A DNA stretch of 64,000 bases from Tissierellia bacterium (GTDB taxonomy: Bacteria; Bacillota; Clostridia; Tissierellales; Peptoniphilaceae), in the NCBI GenBank assembly GCA_030538075.1, contig JAUNUQ010000002.1:62001-126000 (forward strand). Direction: 5' to 3'. A program made the translations under genes and the position numbers. Numbering within the stretch: position 1 is the stretch's first letter; each line of letters opens with the position of its first letter. Positions 2-12,071 of the stretch are shown here, one piece after another. The notes below the pieces were generated by a model. That model saw only the letters and a program-made list of their open reading frames with translations, did not search any database and was not told where the DNA came from.

Positions 2-721
2 CAAGGGGTGGGGATTGGAAATATCACAGATGCCATGTCCGCGGTGAAATACAATGTGTACGATCATCAGAACTTCACCATGGTTGAGTTGATGCAAGCT
101 GTAAAAGATAATTTTGTCGGCCACGATCGCATTTGGAACCTGGTCATGAACCGAACGCCGAAATACGGAAACGACGATGATTATGCAGACGCCCTTCTGG
201 TTCAGATCTTCAATGAATACCACGATATGATCGAAGGTAGACCAGCGGGACGAGGTGGACAGCATCATATCAATATGCTTCCGACGACCTGTCATGTCTA
301 TTTTGGCTCTGTGATCGGAGCGACTCCCGATGGCAGATTGTCGGGCAAGCCCCTGGCCGATGGGATCTCCCCTTCAAAAGGTGCAGACATCAACGGGCCG
401 ACTGGCGTGATCAAATCCGCCGCCAAGATGGATCATTCCAAGACGGGCGGAACCCTTCTAAATCAAAAATTCATCCCCTCCGTGGTCGCTGGGGAAGAGG
501 GTCTAAGCGGGATGGCAGCAGTTGTCCGCGGCTATTTTGAACTGGGAGGCCACCATGTACAGTTCAATGTCGTAGGTAGAGACACCCTGCGAAAAGCACA
601 GGAACATCCAGAGGAATTCAAAGATCTCATCGTCCGGGTTGCAGGCTATAGTGACTATTTCAACAATTTGGACAAGGCCCTACAAGACGAGATCATCGAA
701 CGAACAGAGCAGTCTGTATAG
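2..721 (+). CDS. Glycyl-radical enzyme (PFL-like dehydratase/lyase), C-terminal part
   Basis: The gene runs in from the left edge: the frame is open from base 2, so only the last 239 or so codons are visible. The translation carries the glycyl-radical loop near its C-terminus (RVAGYSDYFNNL), where the Gly would hold the radical, and other stretches typical of this superfamily (PKYGNDDDYAD, ATPDGRLSGKPLADG, KTGGTLLNQKF). The active-site Cys half and any activase lie outside the window. The family includes pyruvate formate-lyase, glycerol, propanediol and hydroxyproline dehydratases and choline/isethionate lyases. This C-terminal part looks more like a dehydratase/lyase than true PFL, but the substrate cannot be assigned here. 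A strong terminator follows, so it ends its transcript. Confidence 0.88.
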   Translation, partial: QGVGIGNITDAMSAVKYNVYDHQNFTMVELMQAVKDNFVGHDRIWNLVMNRTPKYGNDDDYADALLVQIFNEYHDMIEGRPAGRGGQHHINMLPTTCHVYFGSVIGATPDGRLSGKPLADGISPSKGADINGPTGVIKSAAKMDHSKTGGTLLNQKFIPSVVAGEEGLSGMAAVVRGYFELGGHHVQFNVVGRDTLRKAQEHPEEFKDLIVRVAGYSDYFNNLDKALQDEIIERTEQSV

Positions 722-2263: not shown

Positions 2264-3469
2264 ATGGAGCTAACAAAAGACCAACAGGCGATGCTCGATG
2301 GCGAATATGATGCCGGTACACAACTGGCGATGAAGATTCAAGTGGCCATTGGGGAATCCTTTGGTGCAGAGCGAATGGTGCCAATCACCAGAGCTCACGT
2401 GGCGCTCAGCAACCAGGAGGCAGATCTATGGTTCGCAGAAAAACTACTGGGACTCGGTGCGAAATGTAGAGTTGCACCGACGGTAAACCCAGGGTTCAAC
2501 CATTCTTATTTTACAGAAAGGGATATGGTGGATCCGGAGTTTGCAGACTTGATGGCTAGAACCCATGCGGCATATAAAGCCCTTGGCGCAGTACTTACCT
2601 ACAACTGTACACCATATATCGATACGAATGTACCAAATTTCGGAGAGGTTACAGCGTATTCTGAATCCAGTGCAACCCCTTATGTAAATGGGGTTTGGGG
2701 AGCTCGGTCCAATCGTGAGGGTGCCAACAGCGCACTTTGCGCAGCGATTACTGGCTATGTGCCAGAGTATGGACTACTACTCGATGAAAACCGATATGCA
2801 AATATTTTAGTGGAAGTTCAGGCGGATATGAAAACTGCCTATGACTATCACATCTTAGGCATGTGTGGCAAGAAGATCGGCAGCGGAATTCCAGCATTTA
2901 CTGGTCTGCCAAAGCATGTCAGCAAAGAAGCATACAGAAATCTATGTGCTCAATTGAATACATCTGGCGCCTATGGGATGTTCCACATCATTGGAACGAC
3001 ACCGGAAGCTCCTGATTTAGAGACTGCCTTTGGTGGCAAAGAGCCGGCTCGCCGCGTCGTCATAACCAATGAAGACTTTGAAAAAGTGCTGTCGGAGATC
3101 TCTCTGCCAGGTGATCGAGAGATCGATTTCGTGATGTTCGGCTGTCCTCATTTCACTTTAGAAGAAGTCAAGCATATCGCGGATAAAGTAAAAGGCCAAA
3201 AAATGAAAAAAGAAATGTGGATCCTCACTTCTTCTCTCGTAAAGCAAATCTCTGAGAGAATGGGGCTGGATGAGATCATCACCGAAGCCGGTGGGCAAAT
3301 CGTCGCAGATACTTGTCCGGATCAGCCTTGCTGGAGACATTTGAATGGCAAGATCGGGATCACCGAATCCCCCAAATGTGCTTATTACCCGCAAAGAAGA
3401 GGCATGCATTTCGTCATTCGGGATTTAGATACCTGCATTGATGCAGCTCTCACTGGGGAGGTGAAGTAG
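2264..3469 (+). CDS. Aconitase X catalytic (large) subunit, cysteine form
   Basis: A 401-residue member of the aconitase X (AcnX, DUF521) family. Characterised members dehydrate cis-3-hydroxy-L-proline or mevalonate 5-phosphate using an iron or iron-sulfur centre. Family-like stretches include VPITRAHVALS, TYNCTPY and SESSATPYVN. Cys351 (IVADTC), Cys356 and Cys372 near the C-terminus are candidate metal or cluster ligands. A good ribosome site (AAGGAGG) precedes the ATG. The stop is directly followed by the small-subunit start, as expected for split AcnX. The tandem paralogue downstream has TGA in place of Cys351. The actual substrate is unknown; the TRAP transporter downstream suggests an imported organic acid or hydroxyproline-like compound. 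Confidence 0.88.
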   Translation: MELTKDQQAMLDGEYDAGTQLAMKIQVAIGESFGAERMVPITRAHVALSNQEADLWFAEKLLGLGAKCRVAPTVNPGFNHSYFTERDMVDPEFADLMARTHAAYKALGAVLTYNCTPYIDTNVPNFGEVTAYSESSATPYVNGVWGARSNREGANSALCAAITGYVPEYGLLLDENRYANILVEVQADMKTAYDYHILGMCGKKIGSGIPAFTGLPKHVSKEAYRNLCAQLNTSGAYGMFHIIGTTPEAPDLETAFGGKEPARRVVITNEDFEKVLSEISLPGDREIDFVMFGCPHFTLEEVKHIADKVKGQKMKKEMWILTSSLVKQISERMGLDEIITEAGGQIVADTCPDQPCWRHLNGKIGITESPKCAYYPQRRGMHFVIRDLDTCIDAALTGEVK

Positions 3470-3874
3470 ATGAGTCGTGAATTTAAATGTCACAGAATCT
3501 CAGAAGGAGTCGCTGAAGGAGAAGTCATCATCTCCAAAGACAATATCATGTTCTACTTGATTAAGCCTGAAACGGGTGAAGTCATTGAACCGGCCCATGA
3601 TCTGGAAGGCAAGACCATCGCTAAGAAAATTTTGATCTTCCCAGAGGGTAAGGGGAGTTCCGTCGTACAAGCAGATGGACTCTATCAACTGACAATGAAG
3701 GGAAATGCTCCCAAGGGTATGATTATCCAGTACCCAGAGACCGTATTGGTATCCAGCGCCATCATCTTCGAGATCCCCTTGGTTGACAAGGTAGATCCGG
3801 AGTTTTACGAAGTGGTAAAAGATGGCGACATGGTACGAATCGATGCGGATGCAGAAGTTATAACAATATTGTAG
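3470..3874 (+). CDS. Aconitase X swivelling (small) subunit
   Basis: A 134-residue DUF126 protein, the swivel domain of the aconitase fold, which pairs with the large subunit to close the active site. The conserved stretch GKGSSVVQADGLYQL contains the family GKGSS substrate-loop motif. It starts at the base after the large-subunit stop, with GGAGGTG inside the preceding codons as its ribosome site, so the two are translationally linked. It ends 18 bases before the second large subunit. Confidence 0.88.
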   Translation: MSREFKCHRISEGVAEGEVIISKDNIMFYLIKPETGEVIEPAHDLEGKTIAKKILIFPEGKGSSVVQADGLYQLTMKGNAPKGMIIQYPETVLVSSAIIFEIPLVDKVDPEFYEVVKDGDMVRIDADAEVITIL

Positions 3875-3892: not shown

Positions 3893-5110
3893 TTGAAACT
3901 CAATCAAAGAGAGAAAGATATTCTTGCTGGCAAGTACGGAGAGGGAATTCAGTTAGCTCTGGAAATTCAATTGGGTGTTGGGGAAACTTTTGATGCTGAT
4001 GTTTTCGTTCCCATCACCAGAGCCCATGTTGCTTTAAGCGCGCAGGATGCGGACGTGTGGTTTGCAGAAACCCTAAGGGACAAAGGCGCAAAATGTATTA
4101 TCCCGCCTACTGTGAATCCAAGTATCAATATCCAGTACTTAAATGAGCATCTCCATGAAGTACCCGAGGCAGGGGTGGAGAGGGTTCGAAGATGTCATGA
4201 GGCGTACAAAGCCCTTGGTGCGGTTCTAACCTATAACTGTACGCCCTATTTACAACAAAATGTGCCTGCTTTTGGGGAAGTCATTGCCTTTTCTGAATCC
4301 AGTGCAACTCCTTATGTCAACTCGGTGTTAGGAGCTAGGACGAATCGTGAATCTTCTCAGTCAGCGCTCTGCGCAGCTATTACAGGGGTCGTACCACGTT
4401 ATGGTTATTTATTAGATGAAAACCGTAAGGGCGAAATCCTGGTAGAAGTACAGGCGGATGTGAAAGATGATTTTGACTATCAGATTTTGGGTTGGTGTTA
4501 TCCGGAGAAGTACAAAGGACTTGAAGTGCCCGTATTCACAGGGATTAAGCAGAGACCAACCCCTGAAGGATTTATGAACTTCGGTGCACAGCTGAACACC
4601 TCAGGTGCCTGTGGTATGTATCATATGGTCGGTATCACGCCGGAAGCTCCAACTTTGGAAGCTGCCTTCGGTGGGAATGAGATTAAAGAGAAAATCATCA
4701 TTACGGATAAAGACCTTCAAGAAACACGGGAGAGGATGGCTGGCGATCCTAAAAAAGTGGATGTTGCTATGTTTGGATGTCCACATATCTCGATTCGCCA
4801 AGTAGGGATCATCGCACAGATATGTGAAGGAAAGCGATTTGCAATCGACACATGGCTATTGACCAGTGCCCTTACGAGAGAACTGGCAGACCAGATGGGC
4901 TATCTTGATATCGTACAGCGCGCAGGCGGTCATATCATCGCGGGCACCTGAATCGACGTACCACCGTGCTGGAAGCCGTATTATGGAAAAGTTGGCGTGA
5001 CTGATTCGCCAAAATGTATGTACTACAACGAAATGCGAGATATCGAGTTCATCGTAAGACCTCTTGAAGAAGCTGTTGAAGCTGCTTTAACTGGGGAGGT
5101 AAAGAAATAA
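3893..5110 (+). CDS. Aconitase X large subunit with in-frame TGA: putative selenoprotein (Sec353)
   Basis: The second AcnX large subunit starts at TTG (ribosome site GAGGT). Codon 353, TGA at 4949-4951, interrupts the frame. After it the frame stays open for 52 codons to a TAA whose last base is the first base of the next ATG. Those codons match the first copy closely: PCW, SPKCxYY, and ALTGEVK at the end. Upstream, AGGHIIAGT-TGA aligns residue for residue with AGGQIVADT-Cys of the first copy, so TGA sits at a conserved cysteine. Reading TGA as selenocysteine gives 405 residues against 401 for the paralogue. A hairpin fitting the bacterial SECIS pattern follows. The alternative is a nonsense mutation of Cys (TGT/TGC to TGA), but no other decay is visible. 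No selenium-insertion genes lie in the window. Confidence 0.8.
4958..4981 (+). promoter_or_regulatory. Candidate bacterial SECIS hairpin after the TGA codon
   Basis: Folding by eye pairs GUA with UAU, CG with CG and GC with GC, with bulges on the 5' side, around the apical loop UGGAA (4970-4974). The loop begins 18 bases after the TGA and has G at its second position. Both fit the published bacterial SECIS rules as I remember them: a 3-14 base loop, an early G, and 16-37 bases from UGA. The stem is bulged and the fold was not computed. Confidence 0.45.
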
Positions 5111-5511
5111 TGAAAACCTATAAATGTAGGAAGATCTCTAAGGGAGTTGCAAAGGGAAAGGCTCTCCTCTCAAAGGATGCGGTTTGTTTCTATACAGTTG
5201 AGCCGGAAACCGGAATTGTCATTGAAAAGAACCATGACATCAAAGGCAAGGTCGTTACGGATACAGTTTTGATCATTCCTTCGGGAAAGGGAAGTTCAGT
5301 GGTGCAAGCAGACGGGCTATACAAGCTCGACATGTATAAAAAAGCACCGGCTGCCATCATCGTAGAGCATGCGGACCCAGTCCTGGTATCCAGTGTCATC
5401 ATTATGAATGTTCCAATGGTGCACAAAGTCGATCCCGCATTCTACGAAGACGTCAAGGACGGCGACATCGTAGAAATCGATGCAGACGCCGAGGAAGTCA
5501 GAATCTATTAA
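5110..5511 (+). CDS. Aconitase X small subunit, second copy
   Basis: A 133-residue DUF126 swivel-domain protein, closely similar to the copy at 3470-3874, with GKGSSVVQADGLYKL conserved. Its ATG overlaps the TAA of the putative selenoprotein by one base, which argues that ribosomes really read through the TGA and deliver translation to this gene. It would pair with the Sec-type large subunit, and could exchange with the first. Confidence 0.87.
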   Translation: MKTYKCRKISKGVAKGKALLSKDAVCFYTVEPETGIVIEKNHDIKGKVVTDTVLIIPSGKGSSVVQADGLYKLDMYKKAPAAIIVEHADPVLVSSVIIMNVPMVHKVDPAFYEDVKDGDIVEIDADAEEVRIY

Positions 5512-5529: not shown

Positions 5530-6603
5530 ATGAAGAAGAGATTATTAGCTTTATTATTGCTTTTCGCACTGGCGCTTACCGCCTGTGGGCCGAAGACAGC
5601 AGAACCAGCTACGACAGAAGCGGCTGCAACGGGTGAAACAGAAGAGGCTGCTGAAGTAGCAGAGCCAACAGAGGCGATTGAAGGAGAACCTGTAACCATT
5701 AAATGGGGATCCATCACCTCTGAAAACCACTCCAGCTTCAAGGCTGCAGAGAAATTTAAGGAACATGTAGAAAAAGCTTCAGGCGGAAATATCAAGGTGG
5801 AATTGTACCCCAATGCCCTACTGGGCGGCGACGTGCAAATGGTTGAGTCCGTAGCACTTGGAACTCTGGAAATGGCATTGCCAGCTACTTCCGTCTTCAC
5901 CATGTACTCCACGAAGTTCGGCGTCATCGACATGCCATATATGTTCAGTGATATGGACAAGGCCTTTGAAGCTCTGGATGGTGAAGTAGGACAAATTCTA
6001 GATGCTGAACTTGAAAATGTAGGCATTAAGAACCTGGGCTATGGCTTTAACGGCGTTCGAAATATGACCAATAACACCAGACCGATCACCAAGCCAGAAG
6101 ATCTGGAAGGCGTAAAGATGCGCGTTATGGAGAATCCAGTATTTATCGACCTGTTTACCTACCTAGGATCCAACCCGACGCCGATGAGCTTTGGAGAACT
6201 CTTTACAGCCCTTCAACAAAAGACTGTAGACGGACAGGAAAACCCCGCTTCACTGATCTTTGAATCCAAGTTCCAAGAAGTTCAGAAGTATTTCAGTGAG
6301 ACAAAGCATGTTTATAACTTCTTAGGCAATATCATCAACAAGGCTTTCTATGACGGTCTGTCCGACCAACAAAGAGCGGTCTTAGATGAGGGTGCAAAAC
6401 TGTATCTCTGCGATTGGCAACGTAAGACAGAGAACGAAGAAAATGACATGTATATCGAAAAGCTGGCAGAAGCAGGCATGGAAGTCAACCGTCTAAGCGA
6501 AGATGAAATCAAGGTCTTTGCAGAGAAATTGGCACCGATGTATGACAAATATCGCGGTGAGATCGGCGATGAACTATTTGACATGCTGGAGCCCTATAGA
6601 TAA
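5530..6603 (+). CDS. TRAP transporter solute-binding lipoprotein (DctP family)
   Basis: This protein captures an organic acid outside the membrane and hands it to the DctQM permease. The N-terminus is a lipoprotein signal (MKKRLLALLLLFALALTAC, lipid on Cys19), then an Ala/Thr/Glu-rich linker to about residue 55, then the DctP fold. The stretch GVRNMTNNTRPI holds the arginine that in this family clamps the substrate carboxylate. At 357 residues it is of normal length. It sits 18 bases after the second AcnX small subunit and 15 bases before dctQ, so the imported acid is probably the AcnX substrate or a precursor. Confidence 0.9.
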   Translation: MKKRLLALLLLFALALTACGPKTAEPATTEAAATGETEEAAEVAEPTEAIEGEPVTIKWGSITSENHSSFKAAEKFKEHVEKASGGNIKVELYPNALLGGDVQMVESVALGTLEMALPATSVFTMYSTKFGVIDMPYMFSDMDKAFEALDGEVGQILDAELENVGIKNLGYGFNGVRNMTNNTRPITKPEDLEGVKMRVMENPVFIDLFTYLGSNPTPMSFGELFTALQQKTVDGQENPASLIFESKFQEVQKYFSETKHVYNFLGNIINKAFYDGLSDQQRAVLDEGAKLYLCDWQRKTENEENDMYIEKLAEAGMEVNRLSEDEIKVFAEKLAPMYDKYRGEIGDELFDMLEPYR

Positions 6604-6618
6604 GAATAGGAGATAAAA

Positions 6619-7131
6619 ATGAGGAAACTACTCCGAATATATGATGAGATCGAAGAGAAGTTTTTAGTCGTAAGTTTAGCATTTACGGTAGTGCTCATCT
6701 TTATTCAAGTTGTCATGCGCTATGTCTTTAACCAGTCCCTCTCATGGAGTGAGGAGTTGGCAAGATATATCTTTATCTGGCAGTGCTGGCTTGGCGTGAG
6801 CTTTGCGTTTCGATTTGACTCCCATATTTCCGTGGAGCTCGTTCCGGATCGTATGAAGCCAAAAAATGCCAAAATCCTGAGAATTATTGCCAATGTCATC
6901 ACCTTCCTGTTTTCCGCATTCCTGGTATACGAAGGATTTAAACTGGTTGGCGCAATGGTAACTAGAGGAACGGTTTCTTCGGGGATGCGAGTCCCGCTGT
7001 GGATTGTCTATCTAAGCCTTCCGTTTTCATCACTGATGGTTTGTTTACGACTCGCTCTCAAGCTCTCTGACCAGGTCAGAGAGCTTGGGGACCACACCCC
7101 AGAAGAGACAACTCAAGTAAATGTGGAATAG
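6619..7131 (+). CDS. TRAP transporter small permease (DctQ family)
   Basis: A 170-residue membrane protein with four predicted hydrophobic segments (about residues 15-38, 48-68, 88-108 and 128-150). The pattern SWSEELARYIFIWQCWLG is the conserved signature of the TRAP small subunit, which bridges the binding protein and the large permease. It lies between dctP and dctM, with 9 bases to the next start. Confidence 0.9.
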   Translation: MRKLLRIYDEIEEKFLVVSLAFTVVLIFIQVVMRYVFNQSLSWSEELARYIFIWQCWLGVSFAFRFDSHISVELVPDRMKPKNAKILRIIANVITFLFSAFLVYEGFKLVGAMVTRGTVSSGMRVPLWIVYLSLPFSSLMVCLRLALKLSDQVRELGDHTPEETTQVNVE

Positions 7132-7140
7132 GAGGACGAT

Positions 7141-8416
7141 ATGGATAGTATTTTTCTATTTTTGATCTTTTTTATTCTGATCTTTATGGCTGTGCCCATC
7201 GGTTATGCCATTGGAATAGCAACATTTGCTGCCATGCTATTGTTCTCCAATATTCCCTTAGCTATGATAGCACAGAACGCCGTCACAGGCGTCGACTCTT
7301 TCCCGCTGATGGCCATTCCCTTCTTTATACTCGCGGGGGGGTTAATGAGCGTCGGGGGGGGTTGCAAAGCGGATCGTAGATGTAGCAAACCTGGGCTTTG
7401 GCCGCTTTACAGGGGGACTTGGAGCCGTAACAACTCTGGCTTCCATGTTCTTTGCAGCGATCTCCGGATCTGCGATGGCCACAGTATCTTCCATAGGTGG
7501 ATTTATGATTCCGGGTATGGAAGAACATGGCTATGATAAATCCTACTCAGCAGCCTTAGCTGCGGCAGCAGGTACTATTGGTGTCATCATACCACCCAGT
7601 ATTCCTTTCGTACTATATGGTGTTGTCGTCGGTACTTCTATTGGAGATCTATTCAAAGCTGGCTTTTTGCCCGGTATCTTGATGGGTGTGGCTCTGATGA
7701 TCGCCAACTACATCCTGTCCAAAAAATATGGATATAAAGGGGTACATGTTAAAAGACCCGCTAAAGAGACTATCATGATTTTATTGGATTCGATTCCAGC
7801 TCTATTAACTCCTGGAATTATCCTAGGTGGAATTTATTTGGGGATCTTCACCCCAACGGAAGCTGCTGTCGTGGCCTGCGTATATGCAACGGTAGTCAGC
7901 GTGTTTTTCTACAAGGAGATCACCTTTGCAGGTCTTTATCAAGCTCTAAAAGAGTCGATGATCACCAATGGTCTGACCATCTTCATGGTAGGCTTCTCAT
8001 CCGTATTCGCCGCTTATTTGGCAATGGCACAGATTCCGACTAAAATTGCCTCTGCAATCCTGGGCGTGACGGACAATCAAATCATCTTGCTGCTCATCAT
8101 CAACCTGTTCCTATTAGTCGTAGGTTGTTTCATCGACAATATCCCTGCGACGATTATCTTGGCACCGATCTTACTGCCCATCGTACAGGGAGCGGGAATG
8201 TCAGTGACAACCTTTGGTATTGTACTTACTATGAACTTGGCAATTGGTTTCGTGACGCCACCCTACGGAATAAACCTATTTGTAGCCTGTTCCGTGGCGA
8301 AGGTGAAGATGGAACCGATGGTAAAGCACTTGAAATGGTTTATTTTAGCTCTTCTAATCGTCTTAGCCATCACGACCTATGTGCCTTGGCTGACGATGTT
8401 CCCATTGGGGAAATAA
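7141..8416 (+). pseudogene. TRAP large permease (DctM family), frameshifted in a G8 tract
   Basis: The first part (7141 to about 7363) matches the start of the intact paralogue at 8834. After LAGGLMSVGG the frame fails at a run of eight G (7354-7361) and terminates at 7534-7536. The rest continues in the +1 frame to 8416. With seven G the reading becomes VGGVAKRIVDV, as in the paralogue, and the protein is 424 residues, equal to it. So there is one extra G. It may be a true inactivating mutation, a phase-variable tract (a G7 run lies 17 bases upstream), correction by transcriptional slippage, or a sequencing error. Everything else is intact, so decay, if real, is recent. Confidence 0.85.
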
Positions 8417-8833: not shown

Positions 8834-10108
8834 GTGGACAGTATAATACTGTTTTTAATGTTTTTCTTGTTGATTTTTATGGCTGTGCCCATCGGCTATG
8901 CCATTGGGATATCCACTTTTTTAGCCATGGTATTCTTCTCGAATATACCATTGGCGATGATTGCACAAAATGCCGTCACAGGAGTTGATTCTTTTCCATT
9001 GATGGCGATCCCCTTCTTCATATTAGCGGGAGGGTTGATGAGTGTCGGAGGCGTTGCCAAGCGCATCGTAGATGTCTCCAATCTGCTATTTGGACGCTTT
9101 ACGGGAGGTCTCGGCGCGGTTACGACCATGGCATCTATGTTTTTTGCGGCCATATCCGGTTCAGCGATGGCGACGGTGTCATCGATTGGCGGCTTTATGA
9201 TCCCGGGAATGGAGGAAAAAGGGTACGACAAGGCATACTCCGCTGCCCTAGCAGCTGCAGCAGGTACGATCGGTGTCATCATCCCACCGAGTATTCCCTT
9301 TGTGCTCTATGGCGTCGTCGTTGGCGCCTCGATTTCGGATTTGTTTAAGGCTGGTTTTTTACCTGGAATACTGATGGGAATCGCATTGATGATTGCCAAT
9401 TATTTTCGATCTAAGAAATTCGGATATAAGGGTGAACCAGTCAGATACTCGACAAAAGAGTTCTTAATGATCATACTGGATGCAATTCCGGCGCTACTGA
9501 CACCGGCAATCATCCTAGGTGGGATCTATTTGGGTATCTTTACTCCGACAGAGGCAGCCGTTGTTGCCTGTGTCTATGCATCGCTGGTAAGTGTTTTCTA
9601 CTACAGGGAAATCACTTGGACTGGGATGTACAATGCTTTGAAAGAGTCGATGATCACAAATGGGCTGACGATCTTTATGGTTGGGTTCTCCACTGTCTTT
9701 GCCTCCTATTTGGCAATGGCACAGATTCCCACTAAAATCGCAGCTGGGATCCTGAGCATCACAGATAATAAGATACTGCTCTTACTGATCATCAACTTAT
9801 TTTTGTTAGTCGTTGGATCATTTATAGACAATATTCCCGCGACGATTATCCTAGCGCCGATCTTGCTGCCCATTGTGACACAGCTGGGCATGTCGGTGAC
9901 CACTTTTGGAATTGTTCTGACGATGAATTTAGCGATTGGATTTGTAACACCGCCATATGGGATCAATCTCTTCGTCGCCTGTTCTGTGGCCAAGGTCAAG
10001 ATGGAGCCGATGGTAAAACATCTCATATGGTTTATACTCGCATTGCTCATCGTACTCGCCATCACGACTTATGTGCCATGGCTTACGATGTTCCCGTTAG
10101 GCGGATAG
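8834..10108 (+). CDS. TRAP transporter large permease (DctM family), intact second copy
   Basis: A 424-residue membrane protein with about 12 hydrophobic segments, the transport subunit of a TRAP system. It starts at GTG with CGGAGGG upstream. It is very similar to the frameshifted copy at 7141 throughout, including AAAAGTIGVIIPPSIPFVLY and NLAIGFVTPPYGINLF, but the DNA differs at many third positions, so the duplication is not recent. It has no dctP or dctQ of its own and could supply the large subunit for those upstream. It ends 9 bases before the LarA-like gene. Confidence 0.92.
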   Translation: MDSIILFLMFFLLIFMAVPIGYAIGISTFLAMVFFSNIPLAMIAQNAVTGVDSFPLMAIPFFILAGGLMSVGGVAKRIVDVSNLLFGRFTGGLGAVTTMASMFFAAISGSAMATVSSIGGFMIPGMEEKGYDKAYSAALAAAAGTIGVIIPPSIPFVLYGVVVGASISDLFKAGFLPGILMGIALMIANYFRSKKFGYKGEPVRYSTKEFLMIILDAIPALLTPAIILGGIYLGIFTPTEAAVVACVYASLVSVFYYREITWTGMYNALKESMITNGLTIFMVGFSTVFASYLAMAQIPTKIAAGILSITDNKILLLLIINLFLLVVGSFIDNIPATIILAPILLPIVTQLGMSVTTFGIVLTMNLAIGFVTPPYGINLFVACSVAKVKMEPMVKHLIWFILALLIVLAITTYVPWLTMFPLGG

Positions 10109-10117
10109 GAGGATATC

Positions 10118-11365
10118 ATGCCAATTTTATTACCAGAAGATTATGCATTTCCCTTACCTAAGATGCACCGCGTAAGGCAGAGCTTTAAAGTTAGTCCCCA
10201 AATTCAGATTCACGATACGATCGAAGCTGAATTTCAAAAAGAGAAAATTCGTAAATCTATTCGACCCGGGGCCCGCGTAGCGGTTGCTGTGGGCAGTAGA
10301 GGAATTCATGGAATAGCAGATATAGTAAAAGATACCGTTGATCAGCTCAAATCCCTCGGTGCTGATCCCTTCATCGTCTCCGCCATGGGCAGCCATGGCG
10401 GTGGGCGAGAAGAAGGACAACGAGAGGTCCTCGCGAGCTATGGTATCACAGAAGAGGCCATGGGCGTCGAGGTCATAACAAAGGTCGACGTAGTGACCTT
10501 AGGCAGTACAACAAAGGGTTTTACAGTCTATTTTGACAAGACGGCCTATGAAGCGGATGCTGTAATTCCTATCAATCGCATCAAGGTTCATACGGATTTC
10601 GTCGCCAAAATTCAAAGTGGTCTATGTAAGATGCTGGTCATCGGACTGGGGAATCATATCGGTTGCTCTGCCATCCACGAAGAGGAATTCGAACACTTTG
10701 GAGAAATAATCCTTGAATCTGCGCAGATTATCATGGATAATGTATATATACCATTTGGTATAGGAATCATAGAGAACTCCAGAGATAAGACCTGTCATCT
10801 GGAAGCGATTCCAAGTGAGAATCTCATCGAAAGAGAAGTCGAGCTGGTCCAATATGCCATCGAAAACATGCCGAAGCTGATGATCAGAGACATCGACGTG
10901 TTGATCATTCAAGAGATCGGTAAGGATATTTCCGGCAATGGATTTGACCCCAATATCGTCGGGAAGAGTTTGATTTTAAAAGAATATATTTTGCCCGTTC
11001 CCAAAGTTGACAAGATGATTCTCAATGATCTGTCGGAGAAAACCCATGGGAATGCAGTTGGAATCGGAATCTTCGATGTGACGACGAGAAAAGTATTCGA
11101 TCAACTCGATTTAGAATCCATGTATGCCAATGATATCGCAATTAAATGTCTGGATGACTGTAAAATCCCCTTAGTGGCCGCTGATGAGACAGAAGCGCTC
11201 TTGGTTGCCATCAAATGCCTACGAAATGTCGAAAAGGATCAATTGAAGATCGTTAAGATCCAAAACACATTGGATCTAGAGCATATTTATGTCTCGGATG
11301 CCCTATTAGATGAGATTAGAGCCAATCCAATGCAGGAATTGGTAGGTGATCATACCACAGAATAA
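10118..11365 (+). CDS. LarA-like / DUF2088 protein (lactate-racemase fold)
   Basis: A 415-residue protein of the LarA superfamily. Lactate racemase itself uses a nickel pincer cofactor, and relatives racemise or epimerise other 2-hydroxy acids. Visible family features are the N-terminal VAVAVGSRGI strand, AMGSHGGGREEGQ with a conserved His, and INRIKVHTDF with Lys and His. Nothing shows that this protein binds the nickel pincer, and no larBCE genes are in the window. Its place between a TRAP permease, AcnX dehydratases and a 2-hydroxyacid dehydrogenase suggests it isomerises a hydroxy acid in the same pathway. That is inference. Confidence 0.75.
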   Translation: MPILLPEDYAFPLPKMHRVRQSFKVSPQIQIHDTIEAEFQKEKIRKSIRPGARVAVAVGSRGIHGIADIVKDTVDQLKSLGADPFIVSAMGSHGGGREEGQREVLASYGITEEAMGVEVITKVDVVTLGSTTKGFTVYFDKTAYEADAVIPINRIKVHTDFVAKIQSGLCKMLVIGLGNHIGCSAIHEEEFEHFGEIILESAQIIMDNVYIPFGIGIIENSRDKTCHLEAIPSENLIEREVELVQYAIENMPKLMIRDIDVLIIQEIGKDISGNGFDPNIVGKSLILKEYILPVPKVDKMILNDLSEKTHGNAVGIGIFDVTTRKVFDQLDLESMYANDIAIKCLDDCKIPLVAADETEALLVAIKCLRNVEKDQLKIVKIQNTLDLEHIYVSDALLDEIRANPMQELVGDHTTE

Positions 11366-11384: not shown

Positions 11385-12071
11385 ATGGACAACAGGCAAT
11401 TTAGTCGCGCCAACTCCCGAAAGAGCTTAGCCAGTATTGCCTACGAATCCATACGTGAAATGATCCTGGACGGTCAGATTCAAGAGGGGGACATCCTCCC
11501 AGAGACCGCACTGGCCAAAAGGCTGAAAATGAGTCGTACGCCGATACGTGAAGCGATTCGAAAGCTGGAAAACGAGGGAATCTTAGTATCCATCGACGGA
11601 GTGGGTACCTTTTTAACGAGCATTAGCCTTAAAGACATTATTGATATGTATGAGGTGCGTACAGCACTAGAGGTAATAGCGCTAAAGACATCCATAAACA
11701 ATATGGACCGAAATGAACTCATTCGTATTCAAAACGGGATTCAAGAGGTGTTCCACCTATTATTAGGTGGGGTCGATGAGAGAAATTGTACGGATCAGCT
11801 GAATCAACTAGACACTGAACTGCATAATCTCATCGTACATGACTCAGACAATGACTATGTAAAGAGAGTCATGGAAGAGATCAATTTCAAGATCATGCGA
11901 AACAGAAAAGCTGCCTATGAGACATATACCATGGCTTCAGAAAGCGCGATGCAGCATTTAACTTTAATCGATCGATTCTTGGTCAAGGATTATGCCGCTG
12001 CAAGCGGATTGTTACGCGACCATATCCTATGGTCCCAAGGAATTTTAGAGAATTTCATCCTCAGGAGGTAA
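11385..12071 (+). CDS. GntR-family regulator, FadR subfamily
   Basis: A 228-residue regulator: N-terminal winged helix (about residues 12-75, with MSRTPIREAIRKLENEGIL as recognition helix and wing) and a C-terminal all-helical FCD ligand domain with acidic and His residues that often bind metal and a carboxylate ligand. The ATG follows AATGAGGTG. It lies inside the catabolic operon, so it probably senses the pathway acid and controls the promoter at 2135-2163. No operator was proven. Confidence 0.88.
   Translation: MDNRQFSRANSRKSLASIAYESIREMILDGQIQEGDILPETALAKRLKMSRTPIREAIRKLENEGILVSIDGVGTFLTSISLKDIIDMYEVRTALEVIALKTSINNMDRNELIRIQNGIQEVFHLLLGGVDERNCTDQLNQLDTELHNLIVHDSDNDYVKRVMEEINFKIMRNRKAAYETYTMASESAMQHLTLIDRFLVKDYAAASGLLRDHILWSQGILENFILRR

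Follow-up and report, generated by a model that had tools for sequence, protein, structure and literature searches.

Organization of the AcnX locus

The window, that is, the whole stretch of 64,000 nucleotides analysed here from the draft genome of a Tissierellia bacterium, carries two aconitase X (AcnX) large/small subunit pairs in tandem, followed by a TRAP transporter, a LarA-type nickel-pincer isomerase and a GntR regulator, all encoded on the forward strand. The first pair consists of an intact large subunit, AcnX1 (2264..3469; PF04412, 433 bits), which is a Cys-form paralogue of the gene under study, and an intact small subunit (3470..3874; PF01989, 88 bits). The second pair comprises the large subunit AcnX2-L (3893..5110) and, adjoining it as a separate gene, an intact small subunit that corresponds to the swivel domain (5110..5511; PF01989, 88 bits). 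Downstream lie the genes for the TRAP solute-binding protein DctP (5530..6603; TIGR00787), the small permease DctQ (6619..7131) and two large permeases, DctM1 (7141..8416) and DctM2 (8834..10108), that are 88% identical to each other. DctM2 is intact, and a +1 frameshift in a run of eight G (7354-7361) interrupts DctM1, which past this point still reads as a permease. This frameshift could be a true lesion, reflect a tract of variable length or come from faulty assembly, and because of it the operon is not free of lesions. The cluster continues with a LarA-type nickel-pincer-cofactor-dependent isomerase of group 22 (10118..11365; NF052515, 501 bits, over the cut-off) and a GntR/FCD transcription regulator (11385..12071). 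In several genomes (the window and the loci L050 and L026) the group 22 isomerase is found next to TRAP genes and AcnX, an association with AcnX that may offer a clue to its substrate. At the edge of the window (8-721) there is also the C-terminal part of a glycyl radical enzyme that matches the trans-4-hydroxy-L-proline dehydratase HypD.

AcnX2-L starts with a TTG at 3893 and ends with a TAA at 5108-5110. Translation reveals a single in-frame stop, the TGA at 4949-4951, and a search of its own genome likewise recovers the gene with one internal TGA. This codon is followed by 52 conserved codons up to the TAA, which overlaps by one base with the ATG of the small subunit (5110); the first-pass annotation had described this arrangement, and its coordinates and alignment were found to be correct. 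When the TGA is translated as a residue, taken here as selenocysteine 353 (Sec353), the product has 405 amino acids and matches the Pfam AcnX family PF04412 with 406 bits along positions 1-400 of the 400 in the profile (cut-off, 31.5). Standard gene callers would give AcnX2-L only as a truncated AcnX of 352 residues.

The TGA codon occupies the position of a cluster ligand

The conservation of the TGA column was analysed by aligning 66 AcnX large subunits, taken from the genome of the window and from other genomes; one row of the alignment is gapped at this column. All 64 other AcnX proteins that cover residue 353 have a cysteine there, encoded by TGT in 44 cases and by TGC in 20, with the TGA of the window as the remaining codon. 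In the paralogue AcnX1 this residue is the Cys of ADTCPDQPCW, which agrees with the earlier proposal that the TGA replaces the cysteine of the paralogue. The reading frame is conserved on both sides of the UGA, and Cys116 (codon 4238..4240) and Cys296 (codon 4778..4780) lie in columns occupied by cysteine in 66/66 aligned proteins. The residue two positions 5' of the UGA is Gly in AcnX2-L versus Asp in its nearest relatives; it was considered as a sign of decay and rejected, as this column varies widely and freely among AcnX proteins.

Alignment to the TkAcnX chain of PDB 7CNR, along which the TkAcnX residues were numbered by hand count, places residue 353 on Cys342, Cys116 on Cys110 and Cys296, which is part of a GCPH motif, on the GCPH of TkAcnX (Cys283). 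It has been demonstrated crystallographically that the three aligned cysteines of TkAcnX bind the iron-sulfur cluster (PMC8184944), and the counterpart of the TGA column in AtAcnX is also a crystallographic cluster ligand. In ApPMDh, the equivalent three cysteines are required for the [4Fe-4S] cluster and for activity, Cys356 being the one that matches the TGA column (PMC10040528). That this cysteine is a cluster ligand, a possibility raised from the sequence of the window alone, is therefore proven in two homologues, TkAcnX and ApPMDh. In AcnX2-L, sites A (116) and 1 (296) are cysteines and site B (353) is the TGA, so that the set of three ligands is complete only if Sec is counted as Cys.

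AcnX2-L resembles the type II AcnX large subunits (TkAcnX, PDB 7CNR/7CNS; ApPMDh) in its two-subunit layout, its fold and its three ligand columns. It differs from them in having Sec instead of Cys as the predicted ligand at site B, and in belonging to a bacterial operon that also encodes a TRAP transporter and a nickel-pincer isomerase, whereas TkAcnX and ApPMDh belong to the archaeal mevalonate pathway. The NF051439 family of fused, single-chain proteins is homologous in the large-subunit region, which AcnX2-L matches with 224 bits, far under the 700-bit cut-off. In contrast to that family, AcnX2 is encoded by two separate genes and lacks the C-x-C pair (Cys508/Cys510 in AtAcnX), and since this pair characterizes type I AcnX, AcnX2-L follows the type II pattern. 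TkAcnX is the best PDB match of a predicted AcnX2-L model (Foldseek E value 2.8e-29, probability 1.00), with a TM-score of only 0.59-0.61 in a moderate-confidence model whose mean pLDDT of 70 is too weak for judging the geometry of the site.

The position of a premature stop could by itself be accidental. Of the one-substitution routes to TGA in AcnX2-L, about 17-26% would alter a Cys codon and about 5-7% would strike one of the three cluster cysteines, so the position of the TGA alone is suggestive and not decisive.

Among the explanations that accept a Sec-containing enzyme, Sec353 might play a redox or regulatory role, as in thiol oxidoreductases, instead of binding the cluster. It is true that known Sec residues are mostly redox-active (PMC13188914), but the column corresponds to a crystallographic cluster ligand in both TkAcnX and AtAcnX, the other two ligand cysteines are retained, and the motif around the Sec (GTUIDVPPCW) contains neither UxxC nor CxxU. 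For these reasons we regard a redox role as unlikely, although it is the alternative that best survives, and favour Sec353 as a cluster ligand.

Selenocysteine machinery and candidate SECIS element

The host genome has the means to decode UGA as Sec, so that the refuting condition named in the first-pass annotation, a genome devoid of such machinery, does not hold. The genes selA, selB and selD, together with tRNA-Sec, are found on a single contig (C19), and UGA-containing genes other than AcnX2-L encode SelD, GrdA and three GrdB proteins, with the Sec in classic motifs. The sel genes and the window are on different contigs of a draft assembly with an estimated contamination of 2.1%. This set of three GrdB, GrdA and SelD genes, all with in-frame UGA (L060-L065 on C24, C18 and C56; L053 and L058 on C19), depicts the organism as an amino-acid fermenter of the glycine-reductase type. 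A weak scan of 560 kb of the host genome gave no clear gene interrupted by TAA or TAG; this codon-usage scan is insensitive owing to a weak codon bias and left AcnX2 itself below the threshold, and so it provides no usable base rate for interrupted genes.

A candidate bacterial SECIS hairpin follows the UGA (4953..4995; -7.9 kcal/mol), with the apical loop UGGAAGCC beginning 18 nt 3' of the UGA. According to the published bSECIS model, a stem-loop has to be located 16-37 nt after the UGA, with a G in the first two positions of the loop and a minimum free energy of at most -7.5 (PMC13188914). The window site agrees with these constraints, as do 36% of random codon positions, and within the host genome it outscores the SelD site, the GrdA site and all but one of the three GrdB sites. 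Plain RNA folding 3' of the window UGA was no better than that of shuffled sequences; this was considered as evidence against Sec and dropped, because GrdA, SelD and GrdB of the host are not clearly above chance either. The SECIS result is thus compatible with Sec and, being unspecific, adds little.

UGA serves as an ordinary stop elsewhere within the window. This bears on the possibility that near-cognate read-through inserts an ordinary amino acid, Trp or Cys, at the codon, or that the 352-residue fragment is itself functional. Bacteria do show some UGA read-through, but the 352-residue form would be devoid of a ligand that homologues need for activity, and the TGA-containing gene is present in two Sec-decoding genomes, the second of which is described below; together with the normal use of UGA in the window, this makes such explanations very improbable.

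A second TGA in an AcnX2 orthologue from another phylum

As a single case of TGA in place of Cys can be due to chance, further examples were searched for among relatives, in a comparison set whose closest members come from outside the genus of the window organism. No further in-frame TGA in AcnX appeared in the order (249 genomes), in samples of the class (391) and the phylum (399), or in the class of genome G998 (22), and the relatives recovered by scanning a genome collection with the AcnX2-L protein were all of the Cys form. These Cys orthologues of the same subfamily (L050, L051, L094, L121, L122 and L125-L127) have TGT or TGC at the site; L050 and L051 share the TRAP neighbourhood of the window AcnX2.

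The search was extended to the phylum of L051, which comes from a Synergistaceae metagenome-assembled genome, and in Synergistota genome G1199 it revealed an AcnX2-L orthologue (G1199:C7:31764-32969) that is 67% identical to the window protein and has a TGA at the same codon, in the context HIICDTUIDVPPCWWPYYGK (HIIAGTUIDVPPCWKPYYGK in the window). Two other stops in this search proved to be off the Sec column: a TGA in G1111, whose match has no internal stop, and a TAG in G1175, which is the terminal stop. G1199 has a tRNA-Sec (76.7 bits against a gathering score of 47), and its GrdA and GrdB genes contain UGA, while selA and selB were absent from the approximately 0.6 Mb of it that was sampled. 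The RNA at its candidate SECIS site folds strongly, ranking among the top 5% for the sampled part of the genome, and the genes flanking the TGA gene are intact open reading frames. G1199 also has a large open reading frame (L135, 10804-12474) that by eye resembles formate-tetrahydrofolate ligase; it has the Sec AcnX2 genes on one side and another AcnX pair on the other.

The two Sec proteins share 84% identity after the UGA and 65% before it, and synonymous sites are saturated. On the rough assumption of a 0.5-2% nonsense rate per gene, a matching TGA would arise by chance among about 10 orthologues with a probability of 2e-4 to 1.2e-3. Accordingly, the presence of TGA at the same codon in the G1199 orthologue takes the case beyond chance, and it is very unlikely that two independent nonsense mutations hit one codon by coincidence.

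In the maximum-likelihood tree (INDEPENDENCE), the window gene is sister to L050, a Cys gene from the same order (support 99/97), and the G1199 gene groups with Cys genes in a clade of seven rows (support 100/99). The topology test rejects a single clade of the two Sec genes (p-AU 0.000125); two changes at the Sec column are required. The AcnX2-clade genes seen mostly encode Cys, and only two of them have TGA. Sec may have been gained twice, or it may be ancestral and have been lost many times. Met376, Met381 and Asp383 are common to both Sec proteins (that of the window and L123) and to the Cys protein L127, and absent from the other orthologues; they could be Sec-linked residues or an older common state, and L127 may be a Sec-to-Cys revertant.

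This second case weighs heavily on the idea that the TGA is a nonsense mutation. On that view AcnX2 would recently have become a pseudogene, the operon would be in early decay, and the intact AcnX1 and DctM2 would serve as back-ups. A decaying operon would fit with the frameshift in the adjoining DctM1, an intact copy of which lies downstream, with the intact AcnX paralogue of the window and with the unspecific SECIS support. In addition, real nonsense alleles of AcnX do exist: an AcnX gene of genome G150 (L097; G150:C1:1089500-1096000) has a TAA at residue 221 and is apparently a true pseudogene. However, the G150 case looks different, given that its stop is a TAA at a non-Cys site. Against decay also stand the TGA that a second Sec-decoding genome carries at this codon on a separate branch of the tree, the intact genes around it, and the lack of any other lesion in the 405 codons of AcnX2-L or in its small subunit. 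Unique substitutions are not raised either, with 24 in the window protein versus 18, 38 and 18 in relatives. A pseudogene is consequently quite improbable, and the TGA is very likely a real Sec codon, because the same exchange occurs separately in another phylum. An assembly or sequencing error at 4949-4951 would suit a draft assembly in which the homopolymer frameshift of DctM1 could itself be an error, but it is scarcely credible, since TGA versus a Cys codon is a substitution and not a homopolymer indel, the other long G runs of the window lie in intact open reading frames, and the independent assembly of G1199 has the same TGA.

A proposed selenium ligand in a dehydratase cluster

Taking these data together, we propose, with a probability of roughly 0.87, that AcnX2-L is a selenoprotein in which the UGA at 4949-4951 is decoded as Sec to give the full subunit of 405 residues, with Sec353 most likely acting as a cluster ligand at site B. 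That the protein appeared to be a selenoprotein had been proposed in the first-pass annotation, and the proposal gains support from the Sec machinery, the invariant Cys column and the second case in G1199. The sequence data themselves establish the UGA, its column, the Sec machinery and the second case; selenium insertion is inferred, as are the role of Sec as a ligand, from the homologues, and the nature of the substrate, from the neighbouring genes. SelB and tRNA-Sec would translate the UGA, and the large subunit would pair with the small subunit encoded directly downstream. Since Sec353 replaces the Cys of site B, it most likely joins Cys116 and Cys296 in holding a catalytic [4Fe-4S] cluster. 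The remaining iron of this cluster, the fourth, would stay available for binding the hydroxyl of the substrate, as in aconitase and phosphomevalonate dehydratase, and AcnX2 would eliminate this hydroxyl, probably dehydrating a small hydroxy acid. Judging from the neighbouring genes, the TRAP system might import this acid and the nickel-pincer enzyme might isomerise it.

Sec usually serves redox chemistry or sits at a redox-active metal. To our knowledge, no natural iron-sulfur cluster has an experimentally proven Sec ligand, and predicted cases exist. Bacterial selenoproteins are known in which Sec lies at a metal or iron-sulfur site or close to one (FdhA, [NiFeSe] hydrogenase, HdrA, HesB-like, 2Fe-2S CopZ-like and DUF523 proteins). 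They resemble AcnX2-L in using Sec in place of a metalloprotein Cys and in having Cys homologues, while AcnX differs from them in being a non-redox hydro-lyase. The earlier remark that Sec at an iron site would be very unusual thus stands, with one restriction: because Sec has been predicted before in other iron-sulfur proteins (PMC13188914), among them DUF523 (PMC12013277), this class of site is rare and not unheard of. As for a Sec-containing aconitase X, of which the first-pass annotation knew no description, literature searches on Sec-containing aconitase or DUF521 found no paper, and the 119 families of prokaryotic selenoproteins inventoried in 2026 include no member of the aconitase superfamily (PMC13188914).

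We further consider it fairly likely, with less assurance than the decoding itself, that Sec is the native ligand of a catalytic [4Fe-4S] cluster in a non-redox hydro-lyase and that the exchange took place two or more times at this residue, in two phyla. This recurrence at one residue would therefore point to a probable advantage of Sec beyond classical thiol/selenol redox catalysis; as guesses, selenium could benefit the stability of the cluster or alter the Lewis acidity of the open iron. Sec at a cluster residue of an aconitase-superfamily dehydratase would constitute a natural test of the effect of selenium on a cluster that works as a Lewis acid and not in electron transfer, for which the Cys orthologues and the paralogue of the same operon are ready controls. 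If this reading is true, AcnX would add one family to the known prokaryotic selenoproteome.
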